A stretch of DNA of 32,011 bases from a virus. Position 1 is the first letter of the stretch. Each line of letters begins with the position of its first letter. The stretch spans positions 1 through 32,011 of the IMG/VR virus record IMGVR_UViG_3300048589_001631; one strand, written 5' to 3'. The translations under genes and the position numbers were made by a program. Shown one piece after another: positions 11,699 through 26,175 of this stretch. Under the pieces are notes generated by a model. That model had not been told where the DNA came from. It saw only the letters and a program-made list of their open reading frames with translations, and did not search any database.

Positions 11699-12127
11699 AT
11701 GACATCCTTAGATTATCTGAGCGAAGCTTATCGGCTGGATCTTCGCATTGACAGTAAGCTGGGGCAGATTGCTTCCTTGAACGAACTGGCAGAAAAATGT
11801 TCATCGTCTATCACCGGCATGCCGCACGATCCTAGTCACAGCGTATCATCTATGGCAGATGCCGTTGCAAAGATTGTAGATCTTCAGACGGAAATCGACG
11901 GCGATATTCATCGGCTGATAGACATCAAACGTCAGATTGTTGCCGCAATCAAGGCTGTTGATAACAAGGAGTGTCAGACACTGCTTGAACTCCGCTTCCT
12001 CTGTGGACACTCTTGGGAGGAGGTTGCTGCGAAGATGGGGTACAGCATTCAGCATACGTACCGGATGCGGGACCTTGCGCTGAAGAAAATTGTACCCCGT
12101 GCAAATTGGAGAGTAAATGAGAGTTGA
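11699..12127 (+). CDS. DUF1492 / ArpU-like late transcription regulator
   Basis: This 142-residue protein starts with a helical region (about 1-90). It ends in a sigma region 4-like helix-turn-helix (about 98-135: LELRFLCGHSWEEVAAKMGYS, a turn, then HTYRMRDLALKKI). DUF1492, ArpU and RinA proteins occupy this exact place, between replication and packaging genes, and RinA is known to activate late phage genes. The last 18 coding bases are part of a direct repeat that continues into a promoter-terminator cassette (12109-12322). The regulator's stop codon thus lies next to its presumed target promoters. Late-gene control is inferred from family and position. Confidence 0.8.
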   Translation: MTSLDYLSEAYRLDLRIDSKLGQIASLNELAEKCSSSITGMPHDPSHSVSSMADAVAKIVDLQTEIDGDIHRLIDIKRQIVAAIKAVDNKECQTLLELRFLCGHSWEEVAAKMGYSIQHTYRMRDLALKKIVPRANWRVNES

Positions 12128-12151
12128 TGTTATCTTCGGATATAGTAAAAT
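12124..12151 (+). promoter_or_regulatory. Putative late promoter, copy 1
   Basis: TTGATG (12124-12129), a 16-base spacer and TAAAAT (12146-12151) form a sigma-A-like promoter with a good -10 and a degenerate -35. The -35 overlaps the stop codon of the DUF1492 gene. The weak -35 suits an activator-dependent promoter. Confidence 0.5.
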
Positions 12152-12176
12152 GGCTGTGTCGAAAGTTTAGGCGCGG

Positions 12177-12210: not shown

Positions 12211-12249
12211 TTTATCCGTCTGGTTCCAAAAGATGAGAGTAAATGAGAG

Positions 12250-12277
12250 TTGATGTTATCTTCAGATATAGTAGAAT
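12250..12277 (+). promoter_or_regulatory. Putative late promoter, copy 2
   Basis: TTGATG (12250-12255), a 16-base spacer and TAGAAT (12272-12277) repeat the geometry of copy 1 exactly, although the -10 differs by one base. Keeping both boxes and the spacer supports a real promoter. It would drive HNH, terminase and the late genes if transcription passes the adjoining hairpin. Confidence 0.5.
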
Positions 12278-12290
12278 GGCAGTGTAGAAA

Positions 12291-12321
12291 GCCATCGAGG
12301 AGAAATCCCCGGTGGTTTTTT
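12291..12321 (+). terminator. Terminator hairpin after late promoter copy 2
   Basis: CCATCG (12292-12297) pairs with CGGTGG (12310-12315, one G-T pair) and is followed directly by six T residues. It is a stronger terminator than copy 1 and begins within about 10 bases of the expected start site. It lies between promoter copy 2 and the HNH gene, so late transcription must read through it. Confidence 0.65.
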
Positions 12322-12835: not shown

Positions 12836-13378
12836 ATGGCAAACGGTCACGGCGGGTCTCGCCCCGGTTCGGGTCAGAAGAAAAAACCGCTGGCAGATAA
12901 GATGCTCGACGGAAATCCCGGCAAGAGGAAGCTGACCGTCATAGAATTTCCGAATGCTGCTGAATTGCAGGGCGCGGAAATGCCGCAACCGCGGGAGATG
13001 TTGTCTGCCGTTCAGAAGGACGGCAAGCCGCTCGTTGCCGCAACGATCTACGAGCGGACCTGGACCTGGCTGGAACAGCGCGGATGTGCGAAGATCGTTT
13101 CCCCTCAGGTGCTCGAGCGGTATGCCATGAGCGCGGCGCGCTGGATTCAGTGTGAAATAGCGATTACAGAATACGGGTTCTTAGCAAAGCATCCGACTAC
13201 CGGAAGCGCGATCCAATCACCCTACGTAGCTATGAGCCAGAACTACATGGCACAGACAAACCGGCTCTGGTTTGAGATTTACCAGATCGTCAGAGAGAAC
13301 TGCGCCGCTGATTATTCTGGCGCGAATCCGCAGGATGACGTCATGGAACGACTGCTGTCCGCGCGCAAGGGGAAATAA
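12836..13378 (+). CDS. terS: Terminase small subunit, P27 family
   Basis: This 180-residue small terminase subunit recognises phage DNA for packaging and hands it to TerL. The N-terminus GSRPGSGQKKK (residues 5-15) with the following LDGNPGKRKL is characteristic of the P27 family, as is the central TWTWLEQRGCAKIVSPQVLERYA helix-turn segment (about 75-100). GGGGAGG at 12821-12827 supports the start at 12836, although the frame is open upstream to 12749. It lies between the HNH gene and the small downstream gene. The large subunit is unusually far away (19894) because the methyltransferase, unknown genes and the RIT element lie in between. Confidence 0.85.
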   Translation: MANGHGGSRPGSGQKKKPLADKMLDGNPGKRKLTVIEFPNAAELQGAEMPQPREMLSAVQKDGKPLVAATIYERTWTWLEQRGCAKIVSPQVLERYAMSAARWIQCEIAITEYGFLAKHPTTGSAIQSPYVAMSQNYMAQTNRLWFEIYQIVRENCAADYSGANPQDDVMERLLSARKGK

Positions 13379-13380
13379 GT

Positions 13381-13557
13381 ATGGACGAAATGCAATCGTT
13401 TCTCCACTCGCTCAAGTATCATCGGCTGACGAGCCAGCAGCGCAAGACGCTGCGCGGACAGGCACTTGCGGGAAATCTCATGGCGGCACAGGCAGGCTTG
13501 CGAAAAATAGTATCAAAAGGAGCTCAGCATGGTCATTCAAACACTGCCGGTCGATAA
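13381..13557 (+). CDS. Small phage protein between TerS and methyltransferase
   Basis: This 58-residue basic protein starts two bases after the TerS stop, with an AGGGG site in the TerS tail. Its centre, YHRLTSQQRKTLRGQALAGN then AAQAGLRKI (residues 13-45), is a recurring signature of small proteins found at this place in clostridial prophages. Its last 29 bases overlap the start of the methyltransferase gene in another frame, so translation is probably coupled. The amphipathic, Arg/Lys/Gln-rich helix suggests nucleic acid or protein contact. The function is unknown. Confidence 0.6.
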   Translation: MDEMQSFLHSLKYHRLTSQQRKTLRGQALAGNLMAAQAGLRKIVSKGAQHGHSNTAGR

Positions 13558-14767
13558 GCTAGTACCGGCTGATTACAATCCGCGCAAAGACCTCAAACCC
13601 GGTGATCCCGAATATGAGAAGCTGAAGCGATCGATTACAGAATTCGGATACGTGGAACCGGTGATCTGGAACAAGACTACCGGCCACGTTGTCGGTGGAC
13701 ACCAGCGATTAAAGGTGCTGATCGACACCGGCGTAACCGAGGTCGAATGCGTCGTCGTGGAAATGAGCGAAGAAAAAGAAAAAGCCCTCAACATCGCGCT
13801 GAACAAAATCAACGGCGAGTGGGACAAGGATAAACTGGCGCTTCTGATCTCAGATCTGCAAGGCGTGGACTTCGATGTCTCCCTGACCGGCTTTGACGCC
13901 CCTGAGTTGGATGCGCTGTTCAAAGATGCGCAGCGCGCCGATGTTCATGATGATGATTTCGATGTGGATGCAGCGCTCAAGGAACCGGCGATCACAAAGC
14001 CGGGCGACCTGTGGCTGCTCGGCAAACATCGTCTGGTGTGTGGCGATAGTACCAAGCGGGATATGTTCGACCTTCTCATGGACGGAAAGCAGGCCAACCT
14101 CGTGGTCACAGATCCCCCTTACAATGTTAACTACGAAGGTAGCGCCGGGAAGATCAAAAACGACAACATGACCGACTCCGCGTTCTATGATTTCCTGCTC
14201 GCTTCGTTTCAGAATATGGAAGCCTGCATGGCGAACGACGCATCGATCTATGTGTTCCACGCGGATACCGAGGGTCTGAACTTTCGCAAGGCGTTTTCTG
14301 AGGCGGGATTCTATCTCTCCGGCACATGTATTTGGAAGAAGCAGTCATTAGTTCTGGGGCGCAGCCCATATCAATGGCGGCATGAACCAGTTTTATTCGG
14401 TTGGAAGAAAAAGGGTCGGCACGAATGGTACGCCGACCGGAAGCAGACGACTATTTGGGAGTTTGATAAACCGAAGAAGAGCGCCGACCATCCGACCATG
14501 AAGCCCGTGGAGCTTTTAGCATATCCGATTTTGAACTCCAGCATGGCGAACTGCATCGTGCTTGACCCGTTCGGCGGCAGCGGCAGTACCCTGATCGCTT
14601 GCGAACAGACGGATCGCGTCTGCCGTATGATCGAGTTGGATGAAAAGTACTGTGATGTGATCGTTCGAAGAACCGTCGAACAGCTGAATGGTTCCGACGA
14701 CGTGTTCCTGATTCGCAACGGCGAGCGAATTCCGTACAAAGAAATAGCCGAAAACACAGATAAATAG
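13529..14767 (+). CDS. ParB-like domain fused to a DNA (N6-adenine/N4-cytosine) methyltransferase
   Basis: This 412-residue protein joins an N-terminal ParB/Srx-type domain (about 5-95) to a site-specific DNA methyltransferase (about 165-395). The first contains LVPADYNPRKD and the VGGHQRLKVL motif. The catalytic motif DPPY is near residue 193. The AdoMet-binding motif DPFGGSGST comes after it near 350, so the order is catalytic-target-AdoMet, the beta class. No partner restriction endonuclease is nearby, so it is probably an orphan enzyme protecting or marking phage DNA. AAAGGAG at 13515-13521 supports the start. Phage ParB-methyltransferase fusions are known near terminase genes. Confidence 0.9.
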   Translation: MVIQTLPVDKLVPADYNPRKDLKPGDPEYEKLKRSITEFGYVEPVIWNKTTGHVVGGHQRLKVLIDTGVTEVECVVVEMSEEKEKALNIALNKINGEWDKDKLALLISDLQGVDFDVSLTGFDAPELDALFKDAQRADVHDDDFDVDAALKEPAITKPGDLWLLGKHRLVCGDSTKRDMFDLLMDGKQANLVVTDPPYNVNYEGSAGKIKNDNMTDSAFYDFLLASFQNMEACMANDASIYVFHADTEGLNFRKAFSEAGFYLSGTCIWKKQSLVLGRSPYQWRHEPVLFGWKKKGRHEWYADRKQTTIWEFDKPKKSADHPTMKPVELLAYPILNSSMANCIVLDPFGGSGSTLIACEQTDRVCRMIELDEKYCDVIVRRTVEQLNGSDDVFLIRNGERIPYKEIAENTDK

Positions 14768-14829
14768 CTTGATACTCACACCCGCTTGATCAATGTATAT
14801 GACTACAAAAACGAAAGGATGGTAATCAT

Positions 14830-15558
14830 ATGCAGATCAAGTACAACGTTACAGGGGACAGACGAAAGGCGATGGTCGCGGTCATGCGGGACGTGCTGCA
14901 GGATACGACACGATACCTCGGCGCGCCGAGTTTCGCGTTTCAGGTAGGCAAGTACACCGTTGATAAAAACGGTACGATCACCTGCCCGAACGACGCGGAC
15001 GCGGCGCAGATCGACATGCTCGTCCGCGAACTGGCACATGACGGCTTCATTGGCGAACGGATCGGCGTGCCATTGAAGCCCGCGGAACAGCAGATCATTG
15101 AAACGCCAAGGAAGGAAATCATGACACCTACACTCGACAGCCTTGACCGGCTTTCGGTCGAGATGCCGAAGGACGACATGACGCCCACTGCAATGGAGAA
15201 CCTGCGACGGCTGGTTGCGAGCAAAGCGACGCTGCTGAAAAAGTCGCTCGGCACAAACATCCTGCCAATCACGGAGCACGCTGACCGGATAGAATTCGGA
15301 TGGTTCAGGCCGACCGACGACCAAACGGAGATCACGGCCTACTACCAACTGGTACTGGGGCTTTGCGAACTGGCGCGGACGCAGAAGCGCGCACTTGCAG
15401 CCGAGCGCCCTGTTGAAAGCGACCGTTACGCGCTACGTTGTCTGCTTCTGAGAATCGGATTTATCGGCGACGCGTTCAAGGATTCGCGTAAAGTTCTTCT
15501 GCGAAACCTCTCGGGTAGCTCTTCATATGCGAAGCAGAAGGCGGGTGGTGATGCATGA
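14830..15558 (+). CDS. Conserved phage protein of unknown function
   Basis: This 242-residue protein has an N-terminal alpha/beta part (about 1-95) that begins with MQIKYNVTG and DRRKAMVAVM. The second, mainly helical part (about 110-240) contains RIEFGWFRPTDDQTEI and AYYQLVLGLCELAR. Similar proteins are common between methyltransferase and terminase genes in clostridial prophages and are often labelled virulence protein without evidence. No catalytic motif is evident. An in-frame ATG at 15121 could produce the C-terminal part alone. A GAAAGGA site precedes the start, and the stop overlaps the DUF4314 start (ATGA). Confidence 0.7.
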   Translation: MQIKYNVTGDRRKAMVAVMRDVLQDTTRYLGAPSFAFQVGKYTVDKNGTITCPNDADAAQIDMLVRELAHDGFIGERIGVPLKPAEQQIIETPRKEIMTPTLDSLDRLSVEMPKDDMTPTAMENLRRLVASKATLLKKSLGTNILPITEHADRIEFGWFRPTDDQTEITAYYQLVLGLCELARTQKRALAAERPVESDRYALRCLLLRIGFIGDAFKDSRKVLLRNLSGSSSYAKQKAGGDA

Positions 15559-15782
15559 ACGGAATTCATCCGGAGCTGCTGAAACAGCTCAAAGAATATT
15601 ACAAGCCTGGTACGAAGGTGCGGCTGGTACACATGAACGACCCCTACACACACATTCCAGCAGGCACCATCGGGGTCGTTACTTGGGTTGATGATGCTGG
15701 TACCATTTTTGCGAAATGGAGCAACGGAAGCACCCTCGGCGTAGTTTTCAACGTGGATTATGCGGTGAAAATTATTATGTAG
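15555..15782 (+). CDS. DUF4314 protein with element-encoded C-terminus
   Basis: This 75-residue protein has the DUF4314 barrel-like core: YKPGTKVRLVHMNDP, then IPAGTIGVVTWVDDAGTIFAKWSNGSTLGVVF (residues about 15-65, with interruptions). The last ten residues, beginning at Asn66, are encoded by the left inverted repeat of the inserted RIT element. The native end, N-E-D-S-C-V-K-I followed by E-E-G-E-L-E and a stop, is stranded at 19252-19296. The replacement N-V-D-Y-A-V-K-I keeps the shared N-x-D-x-x-V-K-I pattern, so the protein is probably still functional. Its role in the phage is unknown. It starts in an ATGA overlap with the upstream gene. Confidence 0.82.
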   Translation: MNGIHPELLKQLKEYYKPGTKVRLVHMNDPYTHIPAGTIGVVTWVDDAGTIFAKWSNGSTLGVVFNVDYAVKIIM

Positions 15783-15786
15783 AGTA
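15750..15786 (+). repeat. Left terminal inverted repeat of the RIT element
   Basis: It matches the right repeat at 32 of 37 positions when inverted. In the plus direction it provides the final ten codons and stop of the DUF4314 gene. It ends in TTATGTAGAGTA (15775-15786), a motif also present at 19146-19157 and, inverted, at 19199-19210. Confidence 0.8.
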
Positions 15787-15832
15787 AACGATTAGGAAGT
15801 GTGTGTTTGACACGCACTTCCTCTAATTTACT
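15785..15832. terminator. Bidirectional hairpin between DUF4314 and the recombinase operon
   Basis: GGAAGTGTGTG (15795-15805) pairs with CACGCACTTCC (15811-15821), with one G-T pair and a five-base loop. Weaker A/T pairs extend the stem outward. It sits between two convergent genes, 12 bases after the DUF4314 stop and 22 bases after the last recombinase stop, so it can end both transcripts. It lies just inside the element. Confidence 0.6.
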
Positions 15833-15843
15833 CCGCATAATAA

Positions 15844-16869
15844 TTACAGAGATTTGCCGTACCCTTCAAGCCAAGATAGTAAATCCTTATCCTCTGTCCA
15901 GAAGGGAACCGCGCTTACATCGGGAATAAACGCAACCTTTTCTAGAGCTTTGCGCTTCATTTCCAGATTAGAACGTGCATAAATTCCAGTTGTGGCGATG
16001 TTAACATGACCAAGTATGTCACGTATGTAGACTATGTTTACGCCTGCTTCAAGCAAATGCATCGCTTTCGAATGGCGCAGAATATGGGGTGTAACTTTTT
16101 CCGGAATGGTAGGCTGTGCGTTTCGTGCAGCTGCCGCATATTTCTGCAGGATATATCCAATTCCGGATCTTGTTAGTGCCTCATGCCTATGATTAAAAAA
16201 GACAGGATGCTCGTTTGACTGCCCGTACAGTAAATTGCTCTTCTGCATGTAACTCGATAGCAGAATTGTTGTCTGTTCCATTAATGGGACAATGCGCGTT
16301 TTGTTCCCTTTACCGACCAGCTTTATCTGTGCCGGTGCCTGCAGTCTTACGGACGATACAGTGAGATCGGCTATCTCCTGCACGCGGCCACCGGTATCAT
16401 AAAGAACACAAAGCAAAGTCAGATCCCGGCGCCCTTTGCTCGTCGTTGTGTCGGGCTGTCGTAATATCAGCTCAAGGTCTTCCTTGCCAAGATATGATAC
16501 ATACTTTTCAGGAGATTTGCGATTAGGAATGTTCAGCGTCTGTTGACATAAGCTTATTAACTGTGGTTCTTCACCTTGGACATATTTGTAAAAGGAGTGT
16601 ATGGCTGCCAATCGCTGATTTATTGTCGAAGCGGAACACTTTCTTTCCGTTTCAAGCCAGTTCAGAAATGAGGTTACGGTTTCACGGTCTGCATCTTTAA
16701 ATTTGACCTGATTAGGTTCGATTCCTTTGCCCGATTTCAAGAAGGCTAAAAAAAGCCTAAAGGCATCGCAATAGGACGAAATCGTGTTAGTACTGAAGTT
16801 TCGCTGACTGGGCAGATATTCACTCAGGAAGCTACCGAGCAGCAACTGAAATTGATTATTCTTCCTCAT
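15844..16869 (-). CDS. ritC: Tyrosine recombinase, third gene of the RIT trio
   Basis: This 341-residue integrase-family recombinase has an N-terminal SAM-like core-binding domain (about 10-95, STNTISSYCDAFRLFLAFL) and a C-terminal catalytic domain. The catalytic set is visible: Arg in GGRVQE (near 167), HILRHS (near 262), LGH (near 285) and the Tyr nucleophile in TTGIYAR (near 294). It is the downstream gene of the trio and starts inside the second gene, overlapping by 14 bases. GGAGGG seven bases upstream favours the start at 16869 over the ATG at 16875. RIT members are thought to act together; how the three share strand cleavage is not known to me. Confidence 0.87.
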   Translation of the reverse strand: MRKNNQFQLLLGSFLSEYLPSQRNFSTNTISSYCDAFRLFLAFLKSGKGIEPNQVKFKDADRETVTSFLNWLETERKCSASTINQRLAAIHSFYKYVQGEEPQLISLCQQTLNIPNRKSPEKYVSYLGKEDLELILRQPDTTTSKGRRDLTLLCVLYDTGGRVQEIADLTVSSVRLQAPAQIKLVGKGNKTRIVPLMEQTTILLSSYMQKSNLLYGQSNEHPVFFNHRHEALTRSGIGYILQKYAAAARNAQPTIPEKVTPHILRHSKAMHLLEAGVNIVYIRDILGHVNIATTGIYARSNLEMKRKALEKVAFIPDVSAVPFWTEDKDLLSWLEGYGKSL

Positions 16870-17857
16870 AGACATACCCTCCGTTTGGCACGATATACCC
16901 ATAGTGCCTTTCAACGAGTTTGGTGATGTCAGGAAACACATCTGCCGTTAGCCTCAAATATTTGTTGACTGAGTTTAAGTTTACATGCCCCATATAGCTA
17001 GAAAGGACAGGAAACAATGCGTTGATTTTCTCACCGTTGTCGACCCATTTTTTCAGGCAATGAACGGCAAAAGTGTGCCTCAGATCATGGATGCGAGGAC
17101 CATCTTCATTTTTAGGTATGCCTGCGGATTTCAATATCTGGTACCACATGTACGAAACAGTTGTCATCGCATATTTCCCGCCATCGGGCGCTGCAAAGAA
17201 GATACTGGAATCATTAACATTATCAAGGACATTATTTTTGTAGGTCTGACATCGCACAGTAAGTTCTCTGCTCATAGGAGCATAACGGTCAACCTTCCCT
17301 TTGCCGCCCTTTACAGTGATTATGCCATTTTCCAAGTCAAGGTTTTCAACAGTAAGTGCAAGAGCCTCGTTGAGACGCAGCCCACATGAATACAGCACCC
17401 GGAAGAGCAATGACGCGGCATCCCTTCTGTGCGGACTGTTTGAAGGCGCGTTAAGGGCATCTGCTGCAAGAAACAGCCGCTTTATCTCATCTGCTGTGAA
17501 AATGTGTGGCACAAATTTTGAATTTGTTCGGGTACCGTCCAGATGGATCATTGTTTTCGCGCAAGGAAGATCACGGGCGATGAAATAGTTTGTAAGCTGT
17601 GTTGTAACTGTTATCCGGGCGTGCCATGTCTTAATGCTTTCATTAAACGTTCGAACGCACCACGCATCAATTAATTCCTTCGGAAGGGTGTTTGGTGCAA
17701 TATTTAGTTCCTTGCTTATTCGGTCGATCTGGAGAAGCCTATATGACTCGGATGTATATTTACGACCAAGAGCCCGCTTCTCCTCAAGGAACTGCTTCAA
17801 ATGTTCGGCTATTGGGCCTGTAAAATCAGGCATAAAAATCACATTTGACTTACGCAT
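16856..17857 (-). CDS. ritB: Tyrosine recombinase, second gene of the RIT trio
   Basis: This 333-residue recombinase has a core-binding domain (about 10-110) followed by the catalytic domain. Catalytic residues are Arg in CGLRLNEAL (near 160), HDLRHTFAVH (near 255), MGHVN (near 285) and Tyr in SVNKYLR (near 295). All key positions are filled, so it should be active. The frame is open upstream to 17989, but the start at 17857 has a GGAGGAGGT site and overlaps the first gene's stop by 8 bases, the standard coupling in RIT operons. The protein ends in a Glu-rich tail. It is more A+T-rich in codon use than the phage genes. Confidence 0.87.
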   Translation of the reverse strand: MRKSNVIFMPDFTGPIAEHLKQFLEEKRALGRKYTSESYRLLQIDRISKELNIAPNTLPKELIDAWCVRTFNESIKTWHARITVTTQLTNYFIARDLPCAKTMIHLDGTRTNSKFVPHIFTADEIKRLFLAADALNAPSNSPHRRDAASLLFRVLYSCGLRLNEALALTVENLDLENGIITVKGGKGKVDRYAPMSRELTVRCQTYKNNVLDNVNDSSIFFAAPDGGKYAMTTVSYMWYQILKSAGIPKNEDGPRIHDLRHTFAVHCLKKWVDNGEKINALFPVLSSYMGHVNLNSVNKYLRLTADVFPDITKLVERHYGYIVPNGGYVYEEE

Positions 17858-19082
17858 TGGCCAGCACCTCCTCCGGATTAAGCGCACACAGGCGGAGCTT
17901 TTCAATGTCTGCACGGAGATACCTGTTCGTGGAGGCAGGATCTGAATGTCCCAAAACTGCCGATATGGTTTCATACTCAATTCCCGCATCCATCATATGT
18001 GTTGCGAGCGAGAACCGTAATGTATGTGGACCATGAGGCTTTTCGCTCTCCACACTGATTTTTGCTATGCGTAGATATCTTTGCATCTGGTACCAGAATC
18101 GGTCTATTTTACCGAATGGTACGGTGTGTCTTACAAAAATATAAGGGCTTGGATCGTCAGGACGCCCGAATTTTAAGTAATCTATGATTGCTTTGCCAAT
18201 TTCTTCGCTAAGTGGCAACTCTTGTGGGATCCCTGTTTTTTCCTGTACGAAGTGAATGCAACATTTGGTCCAGTCAATGTTTTTAAAAGTGAGAGACAAA
18301 ATATCACCGGAACGCATTCCCAAATGTATCGCCAGCATAAAAATGGCGTAATCTCTCTTGCCTACCGATGTCCCACGCTCAATGGCATTCAGCAGGCGTG
18401 TTGTCTCTTCGATTGTCCATGTATGTGCAAGCCGTTGCTTCCTTGCTGAAACCTTGGGCACATAAACGGAAAGATCCTGTTCAGCAAACTGATTTTCATA
18501 TAAGAACAGGAGGAAGCTTCTGAGTGCATTGACTTTATCTGAGATGGTATTTAATGCGCGTACAGTCAGGAAATGCGTAAATCCTGATATCTTCTCTTTG
18601 CCAAGCGTTTTCAACTCTGATGTAGATGCTACGCCGTTTTGCTTTAAATACATCAGAAACGGTCTTATTGTCCATAGCTTGCTATCTATAGTGCTTTGCT
18701 TAAGATGACGCTCCATACAAGAAGACACGAACCTGTCAAGTACCTCCGAGTAGGATTCAAGCGATATGATGCCAATCTTTGTGGTTCGTATTAATCCGAC
18801 GTCATTCTGTAAAAGCAGAAGATAAAGCAGTGGACGAACAGTTGTGTAATGAAATTTTTTGCAGTCAGCCGAATAGATATCGTCTCCTGCTATATCAATA
18901 TTGTATTCCTCTTGTAGGAATGCCCGAGCCAAGTACCATGAGAATTCATCAATACGGTACTTTTGAGCGTAAACCTGCAGTTTCCGCCAGATAGCAACGT
19001 ATTTTCGGACGAGAGCATCGCAAAATTTTTGTTCTTTAAATGTTTTTGATGCCATAGCAACTAATTCAGATACGTTTGCCAT
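17850..19082 (-). CDS. ritA: Tyrosine recombinase, first gene of the RIT trio
   Basis: This 410-residue protein is the largest recombinase of the trio and is transcribed first. It has an extended N-terminal part (about 1-115), a core-binding domain (about 120-220) and a catalytic domain. The catalytic residues are Arg in LGMRSGD (near 270), HTLRFS (near 358; the usual His after Arg is replaced by Phe), LGH (near 380) and Tyr in NRYLR (near 390). The start at 19082 is chosen because GGGAGG lies ten bases upstream, whereas the longer frame to 19130 would start within the promoter. The operon promoter is at 19108-19135. Confidence 0.87.
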   Translation of the reverse strand: MANVSELVAMASKTFKEQKFCDALVRKYVAIWRKLQVYAQKYRIDEFSWYLARAFLQEEYNIDIAGDDIYSADCKKFHYTTVRPLLYLLLLQNDVGLIRTTKIGIISLESYSEVLDRFVSSCMERHLKQSTIDSKLWTIRPFLMYLKQNGVASTSELKTLGKEKISGFTHFLTVRALNTISDKVNALRSFLLFLYENQFAEQDLSVYVPKVSARKQRLAHTWTIEETTRLLNAIERGTSVGKRDYAIFMLAIHLGMRSGDILSLTFKNIDWTKCCIHFVQEKTGIPQELPLSEEIGKAIIDYLKFGRPDDPSPYIFVRHTVPFGKIDRFWYQMQRYLRIAKISVESEKPHGPHTLRFSLATHMMDAGIEYETISAVLGHSDPASTNRYLRADIEKLRLCALNPEEVLANA

Positions 19083-19107
19083 AATGATAGAACCTCCCGT
19101 TTTATTG

Positions 19108-19135
19108 ATAATAGGAGTATCTGTCATCATGTCAA
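19108..19135 (-). promoter_or_regulatory. Promoter of the RIT recombinase operon
   Basis: On the minus strand TTGACA (19135-19130) and TATTAT (19113-19108) are separated by 16 bases, close to the sigma-A consensus. The start site would fall about 20 bases before the first recombinase's start codon. A TTATGTAGAGTA motif shared with the element ends lies 11 bases upstream of the -35 (19146-19157), where bound recombinase could affect transcription. Confidence 0.65.
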
Positions 19136-19145
19136 CATATGCAAT

Positions 19146-19157
19146 TTATGTAGAGTA
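19146..19157 (+). repeat. Internal copy of the element-end motif
   Basis: TTATGTAGAGTA is identical to the inner end of the left terminal repeat (15775-15786) and is the reverse complement of 19199-19210. It lies between the operon promoter and the right terminal repeat and is a likely accessory recombinase-binding site. Confidence 0.55.
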
Positions 19158-19198
19158 ATTATTGAAGAAATCGAATATTAAAGCCTTTTATTGATGGC

Positions 19199-19235
19199 TA
19201 CTCTACATAACTATTTTGACCGCATAATCCTCATT
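19199..19235 (-). repeat. Right terminal inverted repeat of the RIT element
   Basis: Read on the minus strand it encodes N-E-D-Y-A-V-K-I-V-M-stop, nearly the same peptide as the left repeat on the plus strand. Of five base differences, three are silent third-position changes, one exchanges Ile and Val, and one exchanges Val and Glu. Its outermost eight bases, AATGAGGA, equal the native phage sequence at 19252-19259. Confidence 0.8.
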
Positions 19236-19259
19236 ATGTAGAGCTTTACATAATGAGGA
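19228..19259. promoter_or_regulatory. Perfect 13-6-13 palindrome at the right RIT boundary, candidate recombinase core site
   Basis: TCCTCATTATGTA (19228-19240) and TACATAATGAGGA (19247-19259) are exact reverse complements flanking the six bases GAGCTT. The left arm lies in the element's right terminal repeat, while the right arm runs into native DUF4314 coding sequence. Inverted arms around a 6-8 base core are the usual form of tyrosine recombinase crossover sites (Xer sites have 11-6-11). Confidence 0.6.
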
Positions 19260-19296
19260 CTCCTGTGTGAAGATTGAGGAGGGCGAGCTTGAGTAA
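19252..19296 (+). pseudogene. Stranded native 3' end of the DUF4314 gene
   Basis: In the frame beginning at 19252 the sequence reads N-E-D-S-C-V-K-I, then E-E-G-E-L-E and a stop at 19294-19296. The first part matches, in pattern, the element-encoded end of the DUF4314 protein at 15750-15773. It also overlaps the TTG start of the next gene, as expected of the original gene order. This remnant shows where the element entered and in which frame. Confidence 0.7.
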
Positions 19297-19741
19297 CCGA
19301 GTATTTGCCGCATATGGTGTTGGTGTGAACCGCGGTGAGATGGCGAAGCATTGCCCGACCGCAAAGCTGATCGGCACGGCGGAGCTGAAGAACTACAGAC
19401 TCGCGTTTCGCGGCAGCAGGGCCGGCGCACTGGTGACAATCGAAAAGGCGAAAGGCAGCATTGTTCCCGCGCTGCTGTGGGAGATTTCAATGCAGGATGA
19501 AGCAGCGCTCGAGCGCTGGTTCGGTGTGCCGGAACTGTATCGGAAAGCGACGATCAAAGTGCGTCGCGACGGGTCTCCGGTGGATGCGCTGATTTTCATT
19601 TTAATCAGCGGCAAACCACAGAATAAGCCCAGCGCTTACTATTACAGCACACTTCTGGAAGGGTACAGAGCGGCAGGGTTTGACGCGGACATCCTGAAAG
19701 CTGCGGTACAAGATGGCCATCCGGACATATTCGGCGCATAA
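19289..19741 (+). CDS. Gamma-glutamylcyclotransferase-like (AIG2/GGCT fold) protein
   Basis: This 150-residue protein starts with the GGCT-fold opening VFAAYGVGVNRGEMAKHCP (residues 4-22). It continues with the GTAELKNYRLAFRG segment and an acidic ALLWEIS strand. The fold normally cyclises gamma-glutamyl peptides, and phage members are common beside terminase genes with unknown substrates. The TTG at 19289 is chosen because GAGGAGG lies 7 bases upstream, and it gives the family's usual N-terminus. That ribosome binding site is inside the native DUF4314 tail, so the original coupling to DUF4314 is lost: no transcript from upstream now reaches it without crossing the RIT element. Confidence 0.78.
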   Translation: MSNRVFAAYGVGVNRGEMAKHCPTAKLIGTAELKNYRLAFRGSRAGALVTIEKAKGSIVPALLWEISMQDEAALERWFGVPELYRKATIKVRRDGSPVDALIFILISGKPQNKPSAYYYSTLLEGYRAAGFDADILKAAVQDGHPDIFGA

Positions 19742-19844
19742 ATCACCGTAACGCCGCGTCGCGCAACGTCGCCGCTACAGAGCGGTTCAAAAGGCGGATA
19801 GGGCGGTTGCCCCAACGGCGCACGATAACCAAACCAAGCCGGAC

Positions 19845-19870
19845 ACGGAGGCTCACGCGGGCCTCCGTTT
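19845..19870 (+). terminator. Rho-independent terminator before TerL
   Basis: ACGGAGGC (19845-19852) pairs perfectly with GCCTCCGT (19861-19868) around an eight-base loop, followed by TTTT. The preceding stretch, 19742-19844, is G+C-rich with short inverted fragments and no gene. Its place just ahead of the TerL ribosome binding site implies partial or regulated termination within the late operon. Confidence 0.65.
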
Positions 19871-19893
19871 TGATTTCATAGGAGGAGGCGGTG

Positions 19894-21498
19894 ATGCTAC
19901 GAAAACTGAAGAAATACACGCCGACTCCATTCAAAGCAAAGGATTCGGTGTACGACAAACAGGCTGCCGATCATGCTGTGGCATTTATCGAGTGTCTTTC
20001 GCACACCAAGGGAACTTGGGCGGGAAAGCCGTTTCTGCTCATCGATTGGCAGGAGCAGATCATCCGTGATGTGTTTGGAACACTAAAACCCAGTGGCTAC
20101 CGTCAATTTAACACAGCGTATATCGAAATACCAAAGAAGAATGGAAAATCAGAGCTTGCGGCCGCGATCGCGCTGCTCTTAACCTGCGGCGATAATGAAG
20201 AACGCGCCGAGGTGTATGGTTGCGCCGCGGACCGTCAGCAGGCCTCGATCGTGTTCGAGGTCGCCAAGGACATGGTGACCATGTGCCCGGCGCTGGCGAA
20301 GCGTGTGAAAATTCTCGCGTCGCAGAAGCGGATCGTGTACCTGCCGACCGGAAGTTACTATCAGGTGCTGAGTGCAGACGTCGCCAATAAGCACGGCTTC
20401 AATACACACGGCGTCATCTTTGATGAATTACACACCCAGCCGAACCGTCGCCTCTTTGACGTTATGACCAAGGGCAGCGGCGACGCGCGGATGCAACCAC
20501 TGTACTTCCTGATCACCACAGCCGGCGACAACACAAACTCCATCTGCTGGGAAGTGCATTCAAAAGCACAGGATATTCTGAACCGCAGAAAGACGGACCC
20601 GACGTTCTATCCTGTGATCTACGGCGCCGAGGAGAACGATTCCTGGACCGACCCGAAGGTGTGGAAGAAAGCGAATCCGTCGCTCGGCATCACGGTAGGC
20701 ATCGACAAGGTGAAAGCCGCATGTGATAGCGCGCAGCAGAATCCCGCGGAGGAGAATGCGTTTCGTCAGCTTCGTTTGAACCAGTGGGTCAAACAGTCGA
20801 TCCGCTGGATGCCGATGGACGTATGGGATAAATGCGCGTTTCCAGTTGACCCCAAGTCGCTCGAAGGACGCATTTGCTACGGCGGTCTCGATCTCTCGTC
20901 CAGCACGGATATCACGGCATTCGTGCTTGTGTTTCCGTCGCTCGATGATGACGATAAATACTTTATCCTGCCGTTCTTCTGGATCCCGGAGGATAACATC
21001 GACCTGCGCGTACGACGTGATCATGTGAACTATGATCTCTGGAAGAAGCAGGGTTTCCTGCTGACCACCGAGGGGAACGTCGTGCATTACGGGTTTATCG
21101 AAACGTTCATCGAGCAGCTCGGTATGAAATACAACATCCGCGAGATCGCGTTTGATCGCTGGGGCGCGGTGCAGATGGTGCAAAATCTCGAGGGCATGGG
21201 GTTCACGGTTGTTCCGTTCGGTCAGGGATTTAAGGATATGTCTCCGCCGACGAAGGAGCTCATGAAGCTGACGCTTGAGCAGAGGATTGCGCACGGCGGC
21301 CAGCTAGTTCTGCGCTGGATGATGGACAACATCTACATCCGCACCGATCCGGCCGGCAACATCAAGCCGGACAAAGAAAAAAGCACCGAGAAAATCGATG
21401 GCGCCGTGGCGACAATCATGGCTCTTGATAGAGCGCTACGCTGCGGCAATGACAATAATGGCTCGGTATATGACGATCGAGGCCTTTTACTGATCTGA
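19894..21498 (+). CDS. terL: Terminase large subunit
   Basis: This 534-residue packaging motor pumps DNA into the prohead and cuts the concatemer. The N-terminal ATPase has a Walker A variant, PKKNGKSE (near residue 82), and Walker B GVIFDELH (near 175). The C-terminal RNase H-like nuclease has its acidic residues in GGLDLSSS (near 332), AFDRWG (near 421) and STEKIDGAVA (near 500). The length is normal for the HK97/phage terminase family. GGAGGAGG at 19881-19888 fits the ATG at 19894 better than the adjacent GTG at 19891. It is followed by a convergent regulator gene, so late transcription must run through an opposing gene to reach the portal. Confidence 0.93.
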   Translation: MLRKLKKYTPTPFKAKDSVYDKQAADHAVAFIECLSHTKGTWAGKPFLLIDWQEQIIRDVFGTLKPSGYRQFNTAYIEIPKKNGKSELAAAIALLLTCGDNEERAEVYGCAADRQQASIVFEVAKDMVTMCPALAKRVKILASQKRIVYLPTGSYYQVLSADVANKHGFNTHGVIFDELHTQPNRRLFDVMTKGSGDARMQPLYFLITTAGDNTNSICWEVHSKAQDILNRRKTDPTFYPVIYGAEENDSWTDPKVWKKANPSLGITVGIDKVKAACDSAQQNPAEENAFRQLRLNQWVKQSIRWMPMDVWDKCAFPVDPKSLEGRICYGGLDLSSSTDITAFVLVFPSLDDDDKYFILPFFWIPEDNIDLRVRRDHVNYDLWKKQGFLLTTEGNVVHYGFIETFIEQLGMKYNIREIAFDRWGAVQMVQNLEGMGFTVVPFGQGFKDMSPPTKELMKLTLEQRIAHGGQLVLRWMMDNIYIRTDPAGNIKPDKEKSTEKIDGAVATIMALDRALRCGNDNNGSVYDDRGLLLI

Positions 21499-21504
21499 CT
21501 GTGG

Positions 21505-21837
21505 TTACTCAACAACATCCTCGGTGATTAATTTACCGGTCTTCTCATAACGCAGACCTTCCTTGGAATCGAGTAGTCTCTCACCGAAGACATATTCACC
21601 GTGGAAAAAATCGGAGATGTTCATATCCAGCGCCTCAATGACGCGGCAAGCTACCTGGAACGAGGCTGTTTGAATATCGCGATCCCCGCTTTCAAAACGC
21701 TGATAACTTTGCAGCGGGATCTTTGCTTTCTCTGCTACCTGCATCTGCGTCAAACCGAGAATGACTCGGCGCTCACGCAAAACTCCATCGTTCTTCAGAT
21801 GAGCAACTTGAAAACCGTCGAGACTGAAATTTTCCAT
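21505..21837 (-). CDS. XRE-family helix-turn-helix regulator
   Basis: This 110-residue protein has a central XRE/Cro-CI helix-turn-helix (about residues 22-78). It shows the LRERRVILGLTQMQVAEKAKIPLQSYQRFESGDRDI pattern, interrupted by ordinary turns, and the SYQRFE recognition helix. It has a short N-terminal arm and a C-terminal FHGEYVFG region. It runs opposite to all phage genes and ends six bases from the TerL stop. Its promoter contains two palindromic operators, so autoregulation is likely. The ATG at 21837 is favoured by GGGGGTG upstream; a TTG start at 21852 is less likely. It may be an inserted control cassette or phage immunity factor rather than the main repressor. Confidence 0.82.
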   Translation of the reverse strand: MENFSLDGFQVAHLKNDGVLRERRVILGLTQMQVAEKAKIPLQSYQRFESGDRDIQTASFQVACRVIEALDMNISDFFHGEYVFGERLLDSKEGLRYEKTGKLITEDVVE

Positions 21838-21858
21838 ATAGAACACCCCCAAATTAAA

Positions 21859-21909
21859 TTACATCCAGTTGGATGTAAAAAGATTACATCCAACTGGATG
21901 TAATGTCAA
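21859..21909 (-). promoter_or_regulatory. Promoter with paired palindromic operators for the XRE gene
   Basis: On the minus strand TTGACA (21909-21904) and TAATCT (21886-21881) are 17 bases apart. Two 20-bp sites each carry TTACATCCA and TGGATGTAA around a two-base centre. One (21884-21903) fills the promoter spacer, and the other (21859-21878) covers the expected start site. Their centres (GT and AC) are complementary, so the whole 45-base block is itself a palindrome. A dimeric XRE protein bound here would block its own transcription. Confidence 0.8.
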
Positions 21910-21918
21910 GAGACAGAA

Positions 21919-21939
21919 CAGCCAAATGGCTGCTTTTTT
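21919..21939 (+). terminator. Short terminator hairpin before the portal gene
   Basis: CAGCC (21919-21923) pairs with GGCTG (21928-21932) around four bases, followed by C and six T residues (21934-21939). It lies 16 bases before the portal start. Like the hairpins at 12291 and 19845, it would limit late transcription unless the polymerase is modified or the stem is too short to act. Confidence 0.5.
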
Positions 21940-21955
21940 AAGGGAGCAAGTGCTG

Positions 21956-23281
21956 ATGAACATATTTTCCGGTATTTTCAAAGCGCGGGATAAGCCCGCC
22001 AACATTACAGCAGGCAGCCGCTACAGCTTTTTCTTTGGTGGAACTTCGAGCGGGAAGCCGGTGAATGAAACGACCGCCATGCAGATGACGGCGGTGTACT
22101 CCTGCGTGAGAATCCTGTCCGAAACCGTCGCGGGGCTACCACTGAACGTTTACAAATACAATGACAGCGGCGGCAAAGAAAAAGCGTTTAAGCACCCGCT
22201 CTACCGGCTGCTGCACGATGAACCAAACCCCGAAATGACGAGCTTTGCGTTTCGGGAAACACTCATGAGCCACCTGCTTCTGTGGGGCAATGCCTACGCG
22301 CAGATCATCCGAAATGCCAGAGGCGAAGTGGTCGCACTCTACCCGCTCATGCCGAACAAAATGACAGTCGACCGTGATCAGAACGGCCGGCTTTTTTATT
22401 TGTATCAGCGCGGGTCGGAGGATCCCAACACGCTCGGTTCGGATAGCCGCGTCTACCTAGCGTCAACAGACGTGCTGCACATCCCTGGACTCGGCTTCGA
22501 CGGCCTGATCGGCTACAGCCCAATCGCCATGGCGAAGAACGCCATCGGATTGGCGATTGCCACCGAAGAGTACGGCGCGAAGTTCTTTGCCAACGGCGCG
22601 GCTCCCGCGGGGGTATTAGAGCATCCCGGTACGATCAAGGACCCGATACGGGTTAAGGAAAGCTGGAATGCGGCGTATCAGGGGAGCTCTAACGCGCATA
22701 AGATAGCAGTTCTCGAAGAGGGAATGAAGTATACCGCGATCGGTATCGCGCCGGAGCAGGCGCAGTTTCTGGAGACGCGGAAATTTCAGATCAATGAAAT
22801 TGCGCGCATCTTTCGCGTGCCGCCGCACATGCTGGCGGACTTGGAGAAATCGTCGTTCAGCAATATCGAGCAGCAGTCACTTGAATATGTGAAGTACACT
22901 CTCGATCCCTGGGTCGTGCGCTGGGAACAGAGCATGTGCCGGGCGTTATTCAGCGAGAGCGAAAAACCAACGTACTTCATCCGGTTCAATGTCGACGGTC
23001 TTCTTCGCGGAGATTACGCCTCTCGCATGAGCGGGTATGCCACTGCGCGTCAGAACGGCTGGATGAGCACGAACGACATCCGCGAGCTGGAAAACCTCGA
23101 TCGCATCGCGCCAGAGCTCGGCGGGGACCTTTACCTCATTAACGGAGCGATGATGCTCCTCGGTTCCCCACAGCAAAAAATAGTCGCTTCGGAAGCGAAT
23201 CCGGCGAACAACGGGTCGAGCACAAAAATGCCGCGCAAGAACGAGAGGCAGAAAACAAACAGACAGGAGGATTCTTCTTGA
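21956..23281 (+). CDS. Portal protein, HK97 family
   Basis: This 441-residue portal forms the ring through which DNA enters the head. Family signatures are AMQMTAVYSCVRILSETVAGLPL (residues about 40-62), the ETLMSHLLLWGNAYAQI segment near 105, and the RIFRVPPHMLADLEKSSFSNIEQQSLEY stem-region motif (about 285-312, continuous in the protein). The length is typical. The start at 21956 has AGGGAG ten bases upstream; the frame is open from 21869 but would begin within the XRE operator. The C-terminal tail is Lys/Arg/Asn-rich. The stop overlaps the TTG start of the protease gene. Confidence 0.92.
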   Translation: MNIFSGIFKARDKPANITAGSRYSFFFGGTSSGKPVNETTAMQMTAVYSCVRILSETVAGLPLNVYKYNDSGGKEKAFKHPLYRLLHDEPNPEMTSFAFRETLMSHLLLWGNAYAQIIRNARGEVVALYPLMPNKMTVDRDQNGRLFYLYQRGSEDPNTLGSDSRVYLASTDVLHIPGLGFDGLIGYSPIAMAKNAIGLAIATEEYGAKFFANGAAPAGVLEHPGTIKDPIRVKESWNAAYQGSSNAHKIAVLEEGMKYTAIGIAPEQAQFLETRKFQINEIARIFRVPPHMLADLEKSSFSNIEQQSLEYVKYTLDPWVVRWEQSMCRALFSESEKPTYFIRFNVDGLLRGDYASRMSGYATARQNGWMSTNDIRELENLDRIAPELGGDLYLINGAMMLLGSPQQKIVASEANPANNGSSTKMPRKNERQKTNRQEDSS

Positions 23282-23706
23282 AACGACAATTCTGGAACTG
23301 GGTGCGAAACGAAGATAACACTCGCACCTTAACCATCGACGGCGTAATTGCTGAGGAGAGCTGGTTTGATGACGATGTTACTCCGAAACTTTTCAGAGAA
23401 CAGCTGAACGCAGGTCAGGGTGACATCGTGATCTACGTCAATAGCCCGGGCGGCGATTGCGTCGCCGCGAGCCAAATCTACACCATGCTAATCGAGTATA
23501 AAGGTAACGTCACCGTCAAGATCGACGGCATTGCGGCAAGCGCGGCATCGGTCATTGCCATGGCTGGCACAGAGGTACTCATGGCACCGACGAGCTTGCT
23601 CATGATCCATAATCCATTAACAGTTGCGATCGGCGACACGGAGGAAATGCAGAAGGCAATCGCCATGCTGGATGAGGTGAAAGAAAGCATCATTACGGCA
23701 TATGAG
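23278..23706 (+). CDS. ClpP-like prohead protease, exon 1
   Basis: The first 143 codons encode a ClpP/S49-type head maturation protease of HK97-like phages. IVIYVNSPGGD (about 57-67) forms the oxyanion strand, ASAASVIAMAG (about 87-97) holds the nucleophilic Ser, and LLMIHNP (about 110-116) the catalytic His. It starts with TTG at 23278, supported by AGGAGG at 23264-23269, and overlaps the portal stop. The coding sequence is interrupted after TAT GAG by the group II intron, and exon 2 resumes at 26176 with TTG AAA ACG. Unspliced mRNA would add eleven foreign residues and stop at 23742, leaving a protein without the catalytic Asp. Confidence 0.88.
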
Positions 23707-23971
23707 GTGCGCCCAGATAGGGTCTTGTTAAAAGTGAACTAAGGTATCACACCGCACGATAATGCGGTAATCCACCTGCCTAACCGAAAGGCGAAAGCTG
23801 GCACGGGAACAGAGCACGGCAGGAAAGCGGTAAGTTGTTCAAAGGCAATCGAACACGACTGAACCGCGAGGATAAGCAGATATGAGGATAAAACTGGATT
23901 TGTTGAATGTGAGTTCCCAATTCTCCCTGCTGTGGAGTAAAGGAAAGTGCCTGAAACCTTTATCACAAGTC

Positions 23972-23998
23972 TTATTGCGTAAGCTCATAGCGCAATAA
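23972..23998 (+). ncRNA. EBS1 stem-loop of intron domain I
   Basis: TTATTGCG (23972-23979) pairs with CGCAATAA (23991-23998), presenting an 11-base loop that contains CTCATA. This sequence is complementary to the last six bases of exon 1 over all six positions. The match identifies the 5' splice site and the recognised target. Confidence 0.75.
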
Positions 23999-24257
23999 AT
24001 TATCGCAACTTGTGAAATGTACCGGAGAACCGGTGCTAACGGAACAAAAGCATATCCGACAATCTGCACACCTATTAACAAAGCTAACTGGGGATACCCT
24101 AAACGGAAACGCCGCAAGGCTATGACATTGAGTGTCTGAAAATTCCGCAAGGGTACGGAGCGTTCGTAGTAGTCAAGGACGGTAACGCCGTCATAATGGC
24201 AAAGGAACGCAGTTGTTGTGTACTAAAATAAATGTTGATTAGGGAGGAAACCCTCAA

Positions 24258-26105
24258 ATGCAACCAACAACGGATATTTTAGAAAGAATCCGAAATAACT
24301 CTGGCAAGAACAAAGAAGAAGTGTTCACCAAACTGTTCCGCTATCTGTTGCGTCCTGACCTCTACTATGAAGCGTATAAAAACTTGTACGCCAATAACGG
24401 AGCTGCAACAAAAGGTGTAAATGATGACACGGCTGACGGTTTTAGCAAAGCGAAGATTGAGAACATCATAAAGTCGCTTACGGAAGAAACTTTTCAGCCA
24501 ACGCCTGTAAGGCGAACCTACATTGAGAAAAAGAACAACCCAAGCAAGAAACGTCCGCTCGGAATACCCACATTTACGGACAAACTTGTGCAAGAGGTTC
24601 TGCGAATGGTACTTGACGCCGTATATGAACCAGTCTTTCTGGACTGTTCTCACGGTTTTCGACCCAACAAAAGCTGTCACACAGCTTTGACATCGCTCAA
24701 AAAAGAGTTTAACGGCGCAAGATGGTTTGTTGAGGGCGACATTAAAGGTTGCTTTGATAATATCGATCACGCCGTTCTCGTGGGTTTGCTAAACAACAAA
24801 GTCAAGGACGCTCGGCTGATAAAACTGATTTACAAATTTCTGAAAGCGGGGTATGTGGAGGATTGGCAATATCACAAGACGTACAGCGGTACGCCGCAGG
24901 GTGGGATAATCTCGCCTTTGCTTGCCAACATCTACCTGCACGAACTGGATAAGTTTGTAATGAAACTTAAAGCTGATTTTGACAGACCCGCAACGCAAGA
25001 CCACACTACCGAATACAATCGATTGCAACGCTGGCGCGCTCGTATCAAACCCCGAATTACTATGGCAGAGGGCGAAGAAAGAGCGGCTCTGATTGCACAA
25101 TCACAGGCGTGGCGAAAACAACTGCTGGAAACGCCTTGCAAATCTCAAACGGATAAGAAAATGAAGTATATCCGTTATGCGGATGATTTTCTCATCGCCG
25201 TAAATGGGAATCGTGAGGACTGCGTAGAAATAAAGCGCAAACTTTCTGAGTTTACTAGTATTACCCTAAAAATGGAACTCAGCGAAGAAAAAACGCTTAT
25301 CACGCACAGCAATGAATGCGCGCGTTTTCTCGGTTATGATGTTCGTGTTCGGCGTGACGGGAAAATCAAACACGGAGCGGCGGGAAATAAGAAAAAACGA
25401 ACGCTTAACAACAACACCGAATTGTCAATACCCCTTGAAGATAAAATCCATAAGTTCCTGTTTTCAAAGGGTGTGGTGGAACAAAAAGCGGACGGAACAC
25501 TATTCCCAATCGCAAGACCTTCTTTGTTCAGACAAACAGACTTTGAAATCGTTTCAACCTTTAACGCCGAATTGCGGGGAATATGCAACTATTATTCTTT
25601 GGCGGGCAATTTCAGCAAGTTGAATTTCTTTGCCTATCTTATGGAATACAGTTGTTTGAAAACCATGGCCGGCAAGCACAAAAGCACTATTTCCCAAATT
25701 GTCAGTCAACATCAGGACGGTAAAGGGAACTGGGGCATTCCCTATCAAACAAAAAACGGGGAGAAGCGATTATACTTTGCAGATTACACCGAAGCCAAAA
25801 AGGTGCGTAGCGCATGCGATTTTATCACGAACGCCGCTCTGATGAACGGCAGCACGCGAAACACCTTTGAACAACGGTTAAATGCAAATGTCTGTGAATT
25901 ATGTGGCAACATCGAAAGTGACCATTATGAAATTCATCACGTCCACAAGATGAAAGACCTCAAAGGTAAAGAGCCATGGGAACGTGCAATGATAGCCAAA
26001 CGGCGAAAAACATTAGTGGTATGCCGAGATTGTCACAAAAAGATACATCGTCAGAGTTGTAAAGACCAAACAACAATGGAGAGCCGTATACTCCGAGAGG
26101 GGTAA
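24258..26105 (+). CDS. ltrA: Group II intron reverse transcriptase/maturase/endonuclease
   Basis: This 615-residue intron-encoded protein has RT blocks from about residue 75. RPLGIPTFTDKLVQEVLRMVL is near 95, FVEGDIKGCFDNIDH near 157, GTPQGGIISPLLANIYLHELD near 210, and the catalytic YADD in IRYADDFLIAV near 302. A maturase (X) domain follows at about 400-490. The C-terminal HNH endonuclease has CELCG near 545, EIHHVHKMKDLKGK near 555 and CRDCHKKIH near 593, all with intact zinc ligands. AGGGAGG at 24241-24247 supports the start. The protein helps the intron splice and cuts target DNA for retrohoming. Full length and unbroken motifs suggest a functional, probably recent insertion. Confidence 0.94.
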   Translation: MQPTTDILERIRNNSGKNKEEVFTKLFRYLLRPDLYYEAYKNLYANNGAATKGVNDDTADGFSKAKIENIIKSLTEETFQPTPVRRTYIEKKNNPSKKRPLGIPTFTDKLVQEVLRMVLDAVYEPVFLDCSHGFRPNKSCHTALTSLKKEFNGARWFVEGDIKGCFDNIDHAVLVGLLNNKVKDARLIKLIYKFLKAGYVEDWQYHKTYSGTPQGGIISPLLANIYLHELDKFVMKLKADFDRPATQDHTTEYNRLQRWRARIKPRITMAEGEERAALIAQSQAWRKQLLETPCKSQTDKKMKYIRYADDFLIAVNGNREDCVEIKRKLSEFTSITLKMELSEEKTLITHSNECARFLGYDVRVRRDGKIKHGAAGNKKKRTLNNNTELSIPLEDKIHKFLFSKGVVEQKADGTLFPIARPSLFRQTDFEIVSTFNAELRGICNYYSLAGNFSKLNFFAYLMEYSCLKTMAGKHKSTISQIVSQHQDGKGNWGIPYQTKNGEKRLYFADYTEAKKVRSACDFITNAALMNGSTRNTFEQRLNANVCELCGNIESDHYEIHHVHKMKDLKGKEPWERAMIAKRRKTLVVCRDCHKKIHRQSCKDQTTMESRILREG

Positions 26106-26175
26106 GTACGGTTTGGGGAGAGGGTGAAGCAAACCTGCCGCTGAAAGGCGGCAAGGCGGCTTTTCCCTACTCTAC
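26081..26175 (+). ncRNA. Group II intron domains V and VI
   Basis: Domain V spans about 26081-26113: a GAGCCGTA arm, a CGAGAG loop and a TACGGTT arm. It contains the catalytic AGC triad. Domain VI follows (about 26117-26170), with the G+C-rich CTGCCG/CGGCAG stem and a bulged A expected in the AAGGCGG segment as branch point. Its 5' edge overlaps the end of the maturase gene, as in other introns of this class. Confidence 0.8.

Follow-up and report, generated by a model that had tools for sequence, protein, structure and literature searches.

The 32-base palindrome TCCTCATTATGTA-GAGCTT-TACATAATGAGGA at 19228-19259 of the window (the whole stretch of 32,011 nucleotides analysed here, a virus contig with an identical stretch in one other virus record, 100% over 12836-25738) is one end of an approximately 3.5 kb RIT ("recombinase in trio") element situated inside a phage DUF4314 gene, and appears to represent the spare half of the RIT attachment site. 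Very probably, RIT palindromes derive from the joint of a circular form that would carry two crossover cores. The geometry of the palindrome, its presence at one end only, its switching of sides together with the orientation of the spacer, and the restoration of target genes are all seen in the sequence. The element itself occupies 15758-19253 (3496 bp), plus one 6-mer, and its parts and flanks are as follows.

15555-15751, plus strand: 5' part of the interrupted DUF4314 gene, left flank (Pfam DUF4314 on the flank-joined protein; alignment past the joint with three uninterrupted homologues)
15752-15757, plus strand: bare crossover 6-mer on the left, CGTGGA, probably native to the target
15758-15786, plus strand: left terminal inverted repeat, in which two motifs of recombinase type stand in direct orientation, TTATGCGGTG-N7-TTATGTAGAGTA; its in-frame translation closes the DUF4314 gene with DYAVKIIM*
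15827-15845, no strand: subterminal inverted motif copy, ritC side (sequence match)
15844-16941, minus strand: ritC, tyrosine recombinase (Pfam Phage_integrase, 1.6e-30)
16856-17989, minus strand: ritB, tyrosine recombinase, open frame overlapping both neighbours (Pfam Phage_integrase, 1.5e-23)
17850-19130, minus strand: ritA, tyrosine recombinase (Pfam Phage_integrase, 9.8e-26; family-invariant catalytic residues)
19146-19157, no strand: subterminal inverted motif copy, ritA side (sequence match)
19199-19227, minus strand: right terminal inverted repeat (inverted match to the left repeat)
19228-19233, plus strand: inner 6-mer TCCTCA, predicted unused second crossover site of the circle (family comparison)
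19234-19253, no strand: 20-bp palindromic spacer TTATGTAGAGCTTTACATAA, two inverted predicted binding half-sites, the last element bases (family comparison)
19254-19259, plus strand: crossover 6-mer TGAGGA on the outer side, where the element meets the phage gene (family comparison)
19260-19296, plus strand: 3' part of the interrupted DUF4314 gene, reading SCVKIEEGELE* once joined to the left flank through one 6-mer

The accessible text of PMC3414803 gives the hallmarks of RIT elements as three overlapping recombinases, a length of ~3.5 kb and terminal repeats. The window element contains three adjacent, overlapping tyrosine recombinase genes running in the same direction and belonging to distinct A-B-C types, each of which is matched in the trios of its relatives. 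Its terminal repeat measures 32 bp counted from GGATTATG or 29 bp counted from the motif, and both this and the element length lie within the RIT range (about 3.5 kb, with repeats of about 28-34 bp); furthermore, the palindrome overlaps the terminal repeat. The catalytic residues R, K, HxxR, H/W and Y are intact: R273, K298, H369, R372, H395 and Y404 of RitA are invariant in 11 sequences, and HDLRH..Y of RitB and HILRH..Y of RitC were read straight from the translations without alignment. The element is present in a single copy in its own virus record, and near-identical RIT relatives are multi-copy and multi-site.

Both 13-base arms of the palindrome are exact, and the unit spans the right boundary of the element, as the first-pass annotation had described. 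Pairing across all 32 bases holds at 15/16 positions; an equally good best palindrome was obtained in 0/2000 shuffles of the right end of the window (p floor 0.0005), and 7/12000 shuffled ends, pooled from all the ends examined, scored at least 13/16. With up to two mismatches allowed, the 13-base arm has no second occurrence in the whole window. The natural partition of the palindrome is 6-20-6 and not 13-6-13, namely TCCTCA, then TTATGTAGAG.CTTTACATAA, then TGAGGA, and this 6-20-6 unit directly adjoins the terminal inverted repeat at 19199-19227, the mirror copy of which is located at 15758-15786.

Joined through one 6-mer, the interrupted phage gene reads ...GSTLGVVFN(V/E)DSCVKIEEGELE*. The flank-joined protein matches Pfam DUF4314 with 95 bits, covering the profile to its last position, and aligns past the joint with all three uninterrupted phage homologues, which end ...GEDRCEKIE, ...GEDSCKIIEE and ...GIDRILKI. 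The empty site is predicted to be TTCAA-[CGTGGA or TGAGGA]-CTCCTG, and CGTGGA is probably the native target 6-mer because the outer and the inner right-hand copies are both TGAGGA (the inner one in reverse complement). In the inserted state, the gene ends with DYAVKIIM*, encoded by the element repeat, in close imitation of the lost end. This repeat-coded end (DYAVKI) was considered as the native DUF4314 terminus and rejected: the joined protein scores slightly higher (95.0 vs 90.9 bits), and the Cys two residues after the conserved Asp in 2/3 homologues corresponds to DSC in the joined protein. An initial model of an 11-bp direct repeat (ATTATGTAGAG at both ends) was likewise discarded; the repeated half-site motif explains it, and in other RITs the repeat start lies further out. 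Exact patterns for the circle joint of the window element and for an empty copy of its own target each gave 0 hits in viral_contigs.

For comparison, RitA relatives were collected from faecal phage records, plasmids, 391 genomes of one class (20 matched at E<=1e-25) and 398 genomes of its phylum (42 matched at E<=1e-60). A script found 93 A-B-C pairings; the upstream region of each was aligned with the reverse complement of the downstream region, and the best 32-bp palindrome was scored per end, with a threshold of at least 13/16 pairs. From the 91 scored pairings, 26 without a resolved repeat and 9 without one flank were dropped, leaving 56 insertions; some of the 26 are false second pairings, and four of the 26 (L020, L047, L073, L137) show a one-sided palindrome.

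Across this set the layout follows one rule. The terminal repeat in most elements contains two direct TTATGNNNAG-form motifs ~7 bp apart, with a third, inverted copy further inside, and at one end only the repeat is followed by a 6-mer, a 20-bp palindrome consisting of two inverted copies of the TTATGNNNAG-type motif, and a second 6-mer. The palindrome is present at exactly one end in 45/56 insertions (25 on the ritA side, 20 on the ritC side), equivalent to 37 distinct elements at 90% identity, at both ends in 1 and at neither in 10; the 6-mer beside the repeat begins at the same motif position every time. Of the ten insertions below threshold, most show a palindrome in decayed form at one of their ends; L166 is masked, neither end of L148 has a palindrome, and L120, first scored as lacking one, has perfect palindromes at both ends. 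The same 6-20-6 rule is observed in the plasmid RITs of A. vitis pTi, Rhodococcus and pHG1 (the last outside the 56), and a Sphingobium RIT carries a decayed form of the unit. Copies whose right end lacks the palindrome, which the first-pass annotation would have counted against its own reading, do exist; they do not serve as such a test because the palindrome sits at the other end in about half of the copies.

It could be supposed that the palindrome is a pre-existing phage hairpin (terminator, operator or target) beside which the element happened to insert, given its potential to fold and its position, with phage coding sequence on either side. However, the same 6-20-6 unit accompanies RITs in many unrelated genes, the flanks joined without the palindrome restore the DUF4314 frame with its conserved residues, and the 22-base palindrome core matches only the identical virus in viral_contigs, leaving this origin with practically no probability.

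In the two-core explanation, the transposition intermediate would be a circle, the joint of which would consist of the ritC-end repeat, a 6-mer (c1), the 20-bp palindromic spacer, a second 6-mer (c2) and the ritA-end repeat. Either 6-mer would sit between inverted TTATGNNNAG-type half-sites, one in the spacer and one in the terminal repeat, so that the joint would hold two complete, equivalent tyrosine-recombinase core sites arranged head to head. Integration would swap only one circle core with the target 6-mer: use of c1 would place the spacer on the ritA side, the case in the window, and use of c2 would place it on the ritC side. Simultaneously, the opposite end would be left bare, and the unused core would persist as a silent copy within the palindrome. 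Circle and target 6-mers might differ, and both would then survive, one per end, as coupling sequences. The physical circle and the cut site of each recombinase are predictions from this geometry. The accessible text of PMC8138268 describes two core-binding domains in sequence in RitA; in our view, such an arrangement would be well matched to a site with two cores.

In six genomes (those labelled G are single assemblies), near-identical copies (99-100%) carry the palindrome at opposite ends of the element. Since the spacer would lie between the circle ends and the circle could open at either 6-mer, oppositely sided copies should carry identical spacers when written from the C-end to the A-end. 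In this orientation, the spacers are 20/20 identical in G323, G622, G595, G481 and G508, with 16-18/20 if one is flipped; the sixth genome, G711, gives a tie (18 vs 18 of 20). The flanking 6-mers, unlike the 20-bp spacer, differ between ends or copies. These copies show directly what the first-pass annotation had proposed, that on insertion the spacer goes to one side, and they agree with its view that a circle joint would place both terminal repeats head to head around the palindrome.

The same copies bear on two other readings. The palindrome could be fixed in the inserted DNA and the element body could later flip in place, by exchange of the bare with the inner core, a formal possibility because the two are mutually inverted. 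Such an inversion keeps the spacer as read from outside to inside, but the observed spacers are reverse complements in 5/6 opposite-sided sets, with one tie, so that in-place flipping is very improbable. Slightly less credible still is the placement of the crossover, and of a varying coupling sequence, at the central GAGCTT of a simple head-to-head joint, as the first-pass annotation had it. GAGCTT is indeed the 6-base centre of a perfect 13-6-13 palindrome, and tyrosine recombinase overlaps are often 6-8 bp, a length that it fits. Nevertheless, the whole spacer, including this centre, is identical between copies in 5/6 genomes and the flanking 6-mers vary; a central exchange would divide the palindrome between the ends, but the entire 20-bp unit is found on one end; and joining through the outer 6-mer, not GAGCTT, restores the target genes. 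The crossover is instead assigned to the outer 6-mers, CGTGGA at 15752-15757 and TGAGGA at 19254-19259, and the eight outer bases said to be common to the element end and the target reduce to a shared target word of 6 bases.

On these comparisons, coupling-sequence behaviour is seen in the hexamers and not in the central GAGCTT. In the 45 insertions, the bare-end 6-mer agrees with the inner 6-mer at a mean of 5.18/6 positions; with the reverse complement the mean is 0.98/6. The three 6-mers are identical in 22 insertions; the outer equals the inner and the bare differs in 7, the bare equals the inner and the outer differs in 3, the outer equals the bare against the inner in 6, and all three differ in 7, the last group needing earlier exchange rounds or mutation. 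In G595, one circle with c1=ACCCCC (C side) and c2=TCCACC (A side), inserting into targets that were both GCCGCC, explains two insertions, with 6/6 observed 6-mers located where the two-core model places them. Tn916-type elements exchange non-identical 6-mers between circle and target, in the manner proposed here for RIT, but they have a single joint spacer, no palindromic double core, and conjugation genes.

Read in frame, the variable 6-mers show 9, 13 and 38 mismatches at codon positions 1, 2 and 3 (60 in total), and 33 synonymous versus 16 non-synonymous codon changes over 18 insertions, in a tally that counts the 6-mer set shared by L114 and L115 twice and includes the doubtful short frames of L066, L068 and L128. 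Such a third-position bias fits the acquisition of 6-mers from earlier homologous targets. The native 6-mer of L056 could not be fixed from its relatives, as GCAGTT of the homologues also equals the inner 6-mer, and a search for an empty copy of the L114 target in 25 family genomes matched only the flanks of L114 itself.

The same attachment architecture might also be served by a circle that is copied out with a strand bias, the route suggested for SE (strand-biased circularizing integrative elements), with the donor copy staying in place. Near-identical copies (four in G622 and two each in G595, G481 and G544) suggest a gain in copy number, and SE elements and Tn554 likewise move 6-bp footprints according to the accessible text of PMC10214605. 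On the other side, 6-mers matching the inner one occur at either end (7 outer=inner, 3 bare=inner), an SE-like strand bias is not evident, and copy-out and cut-out followed by re-entry from a sister molecule are inseparable by sequence alone. We regard the copy-out route, in which the donor would keep its copy, as a tentative, less favoured possibility.

Evidence from the target genes also supports the two-core attachment site. Joining the flanks through a single 6-mer restores the open reading frames. Twenty joined targets, picked from the 45 for readable frames, were run against Pfam, and in 18/20 a domain spans the joint, in several without any gap: IstB in 5, transposase cores (rve, IS66, Mutator type) in 6, RVT_1 in 4, and Phage_integrase, C5 DNA methylase and TetR in 1 each; the joined targets of L145 and L150 gave no Pfam hit. 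Mobile-element genes make up 16/18 of the targets with a hit, a share that should not be read as an unbiased rate, given the selection for readable frames. In the IstB and Mutator matches, protein and profile have the same length across the joint, and therefore the empty site contains exactly one 6-mer.

The insertion points coincide with conserved codons, including the IstB P-loop, the IstB DE motif and the reverse transcriptase PQGG. One element was found in two targets, at IIDEIGY of an IstB gene (L067) and at IIDEFGY of a NUDIX-like gene (L047, named from frame reading and not from Pfam); the latter gene is uninterrupted, collinear and gap-free at the joint in three relatives. Across the pooled target sites, no shared arm consensus was found. 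It seems likely, with rather less assurance than for the joint itself, that all RIT elements use a two-core palindromic circle joint through either core, that lineages are addressed to catalytic-motif codons of other mobile elements, and that the spare 6-mer is a fossil of an earlier target; the motifs addressed may be IstB Walker A or B, transposase core motifs and the group II intron reverse transcriptase PQGG.

In four elements, the two flanks are copies of a single target gene in inverted orientation; three of these (L018, L021, L120) have the palindrome at both ends, and L133 is bare at both. Such symmetric ends are expected under the two-core model, in which the palindrome would keep a constant side relative to the target word, so that two right halves should yield two palindromes and two left halves none. 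Recombination between two oppositely placed copies would apparently generate these symmetric forms, which apparently make RITs rearrangement hot spots. L146, in which ritC precedes ritA, was considered as an excised circle and rejected: its joint holds a transposase fragment, and therefore two neighbouring RITs are present. In the reverse complement (about 1260-1550), these are two different RITs in the same rve-type transposase gene, one close to a DNG-type motif and the other close to a SPESKG motif. In addition, L018, L019, L020 and L021 are RIT trios on short contigs from four faecal virus records from Mexico, so that RITs recur in phage fractions.

The RIT on pHG1 of Cupriavidus necator resembles the window element in its three overlapping tyrosine recombinases, ~3.5 kb length, terminal inverted repeats and palindrome, as given in the accessible text of PMC3414803, and both the pHG1 and A. 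vitis pTi copies contain the same 6-20-6 unit in the present analysis; however, the window element is carried by a phage, and identity between its RitA and that of pHG1 is only ~30%. SE elements and Tn554 share with RIT several tyrosine recombinases, imperfect terminal repeats and a moved 6-bp footprint (PMC10214605, accessible part). The SE joint is repeat-6bp-repeat with one crossover, whereas the RIT joint proposed here is repeat-6-20-6-repeat with two, leaving 32 bp between the repeats. Moreover, the Tn554/SE gene set of two recombinases and a TnpC/Srap-type gene is absent from the window, which has three recombinases, and among large ORFs no other lies on the coding strand of the element. 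GInts similarly have three integrase-type genes, a circular form and attL/attR chimeras, but differ by an essential fourth gene, ginD, and cargo, and the accessible text of PMC5385486 does not describe a 20-bp palindrome; the window element has neither a ginABCD operon with an essential fourth gene nor cargo.

The 2012 paper noted the palindrome as an 'overlapping palindromic sequence' unlike usual recombinase sites, and its accessible text offers no explanation of it and calls the need for three recombinases hard to understand (PMC3414803). RIT elements are widespread; in Table 1 of the 2023 comparison, target specificity, empty site and movement mode of RIT are listed as not tested (PMC10214605, accessible part). 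The two-core joint and the target rule do not appear in the accessible portions of PMC3414803, PMC10214605, PMC2864759, PMC8138268 and PMC5385486, and literature searches yielded no other account; a partial earlier description is possible. A two-core joint gives exact predictions of the circle joint sequence, the spacer-receiving side and the coupling bases, and allows RIT ends to be defined to the base for annotation. If this is true, the presence of two cores would offer a division of labour to the three recombinases. The targets further suggest that RITs are parasites of the most conserved codons of other mobile elements, phage genes included.

Several other features were observed in the window. 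A group II intron occupies 23742-26175 (Rfam RF00029 at 26079-26175), with an ORF at 24258-26105 carrying RVT_1, maturase and HNH domains; a ClpP-type protease frame (23278-23742) precedes it and seems to resume at 26176, so that here, too, a phage gene would be split by a mobile element, the second in the window. At 21858-21904, in the interval separating the portal gene from an HTH_3 gene on the minus strand (21505-21852), there is a pair of almost perfect 20-bp palindromes (TTACATCCAGTTGGATGTAA and its mirror image), at most about 7 bp apart, which look like repressor operators. A 57-bp direct repeat, 93% identical, is located at 12109-12165 and 12235-12291 between two small ORFs. Finally, the ORF at the contig end (30662-32011) encodes what we take to be a diguanylate cyclase, judging from the GGEEF motif in its translation, which is unusual beside phage genes and possibly represents host DNA or a phage-carried gene.
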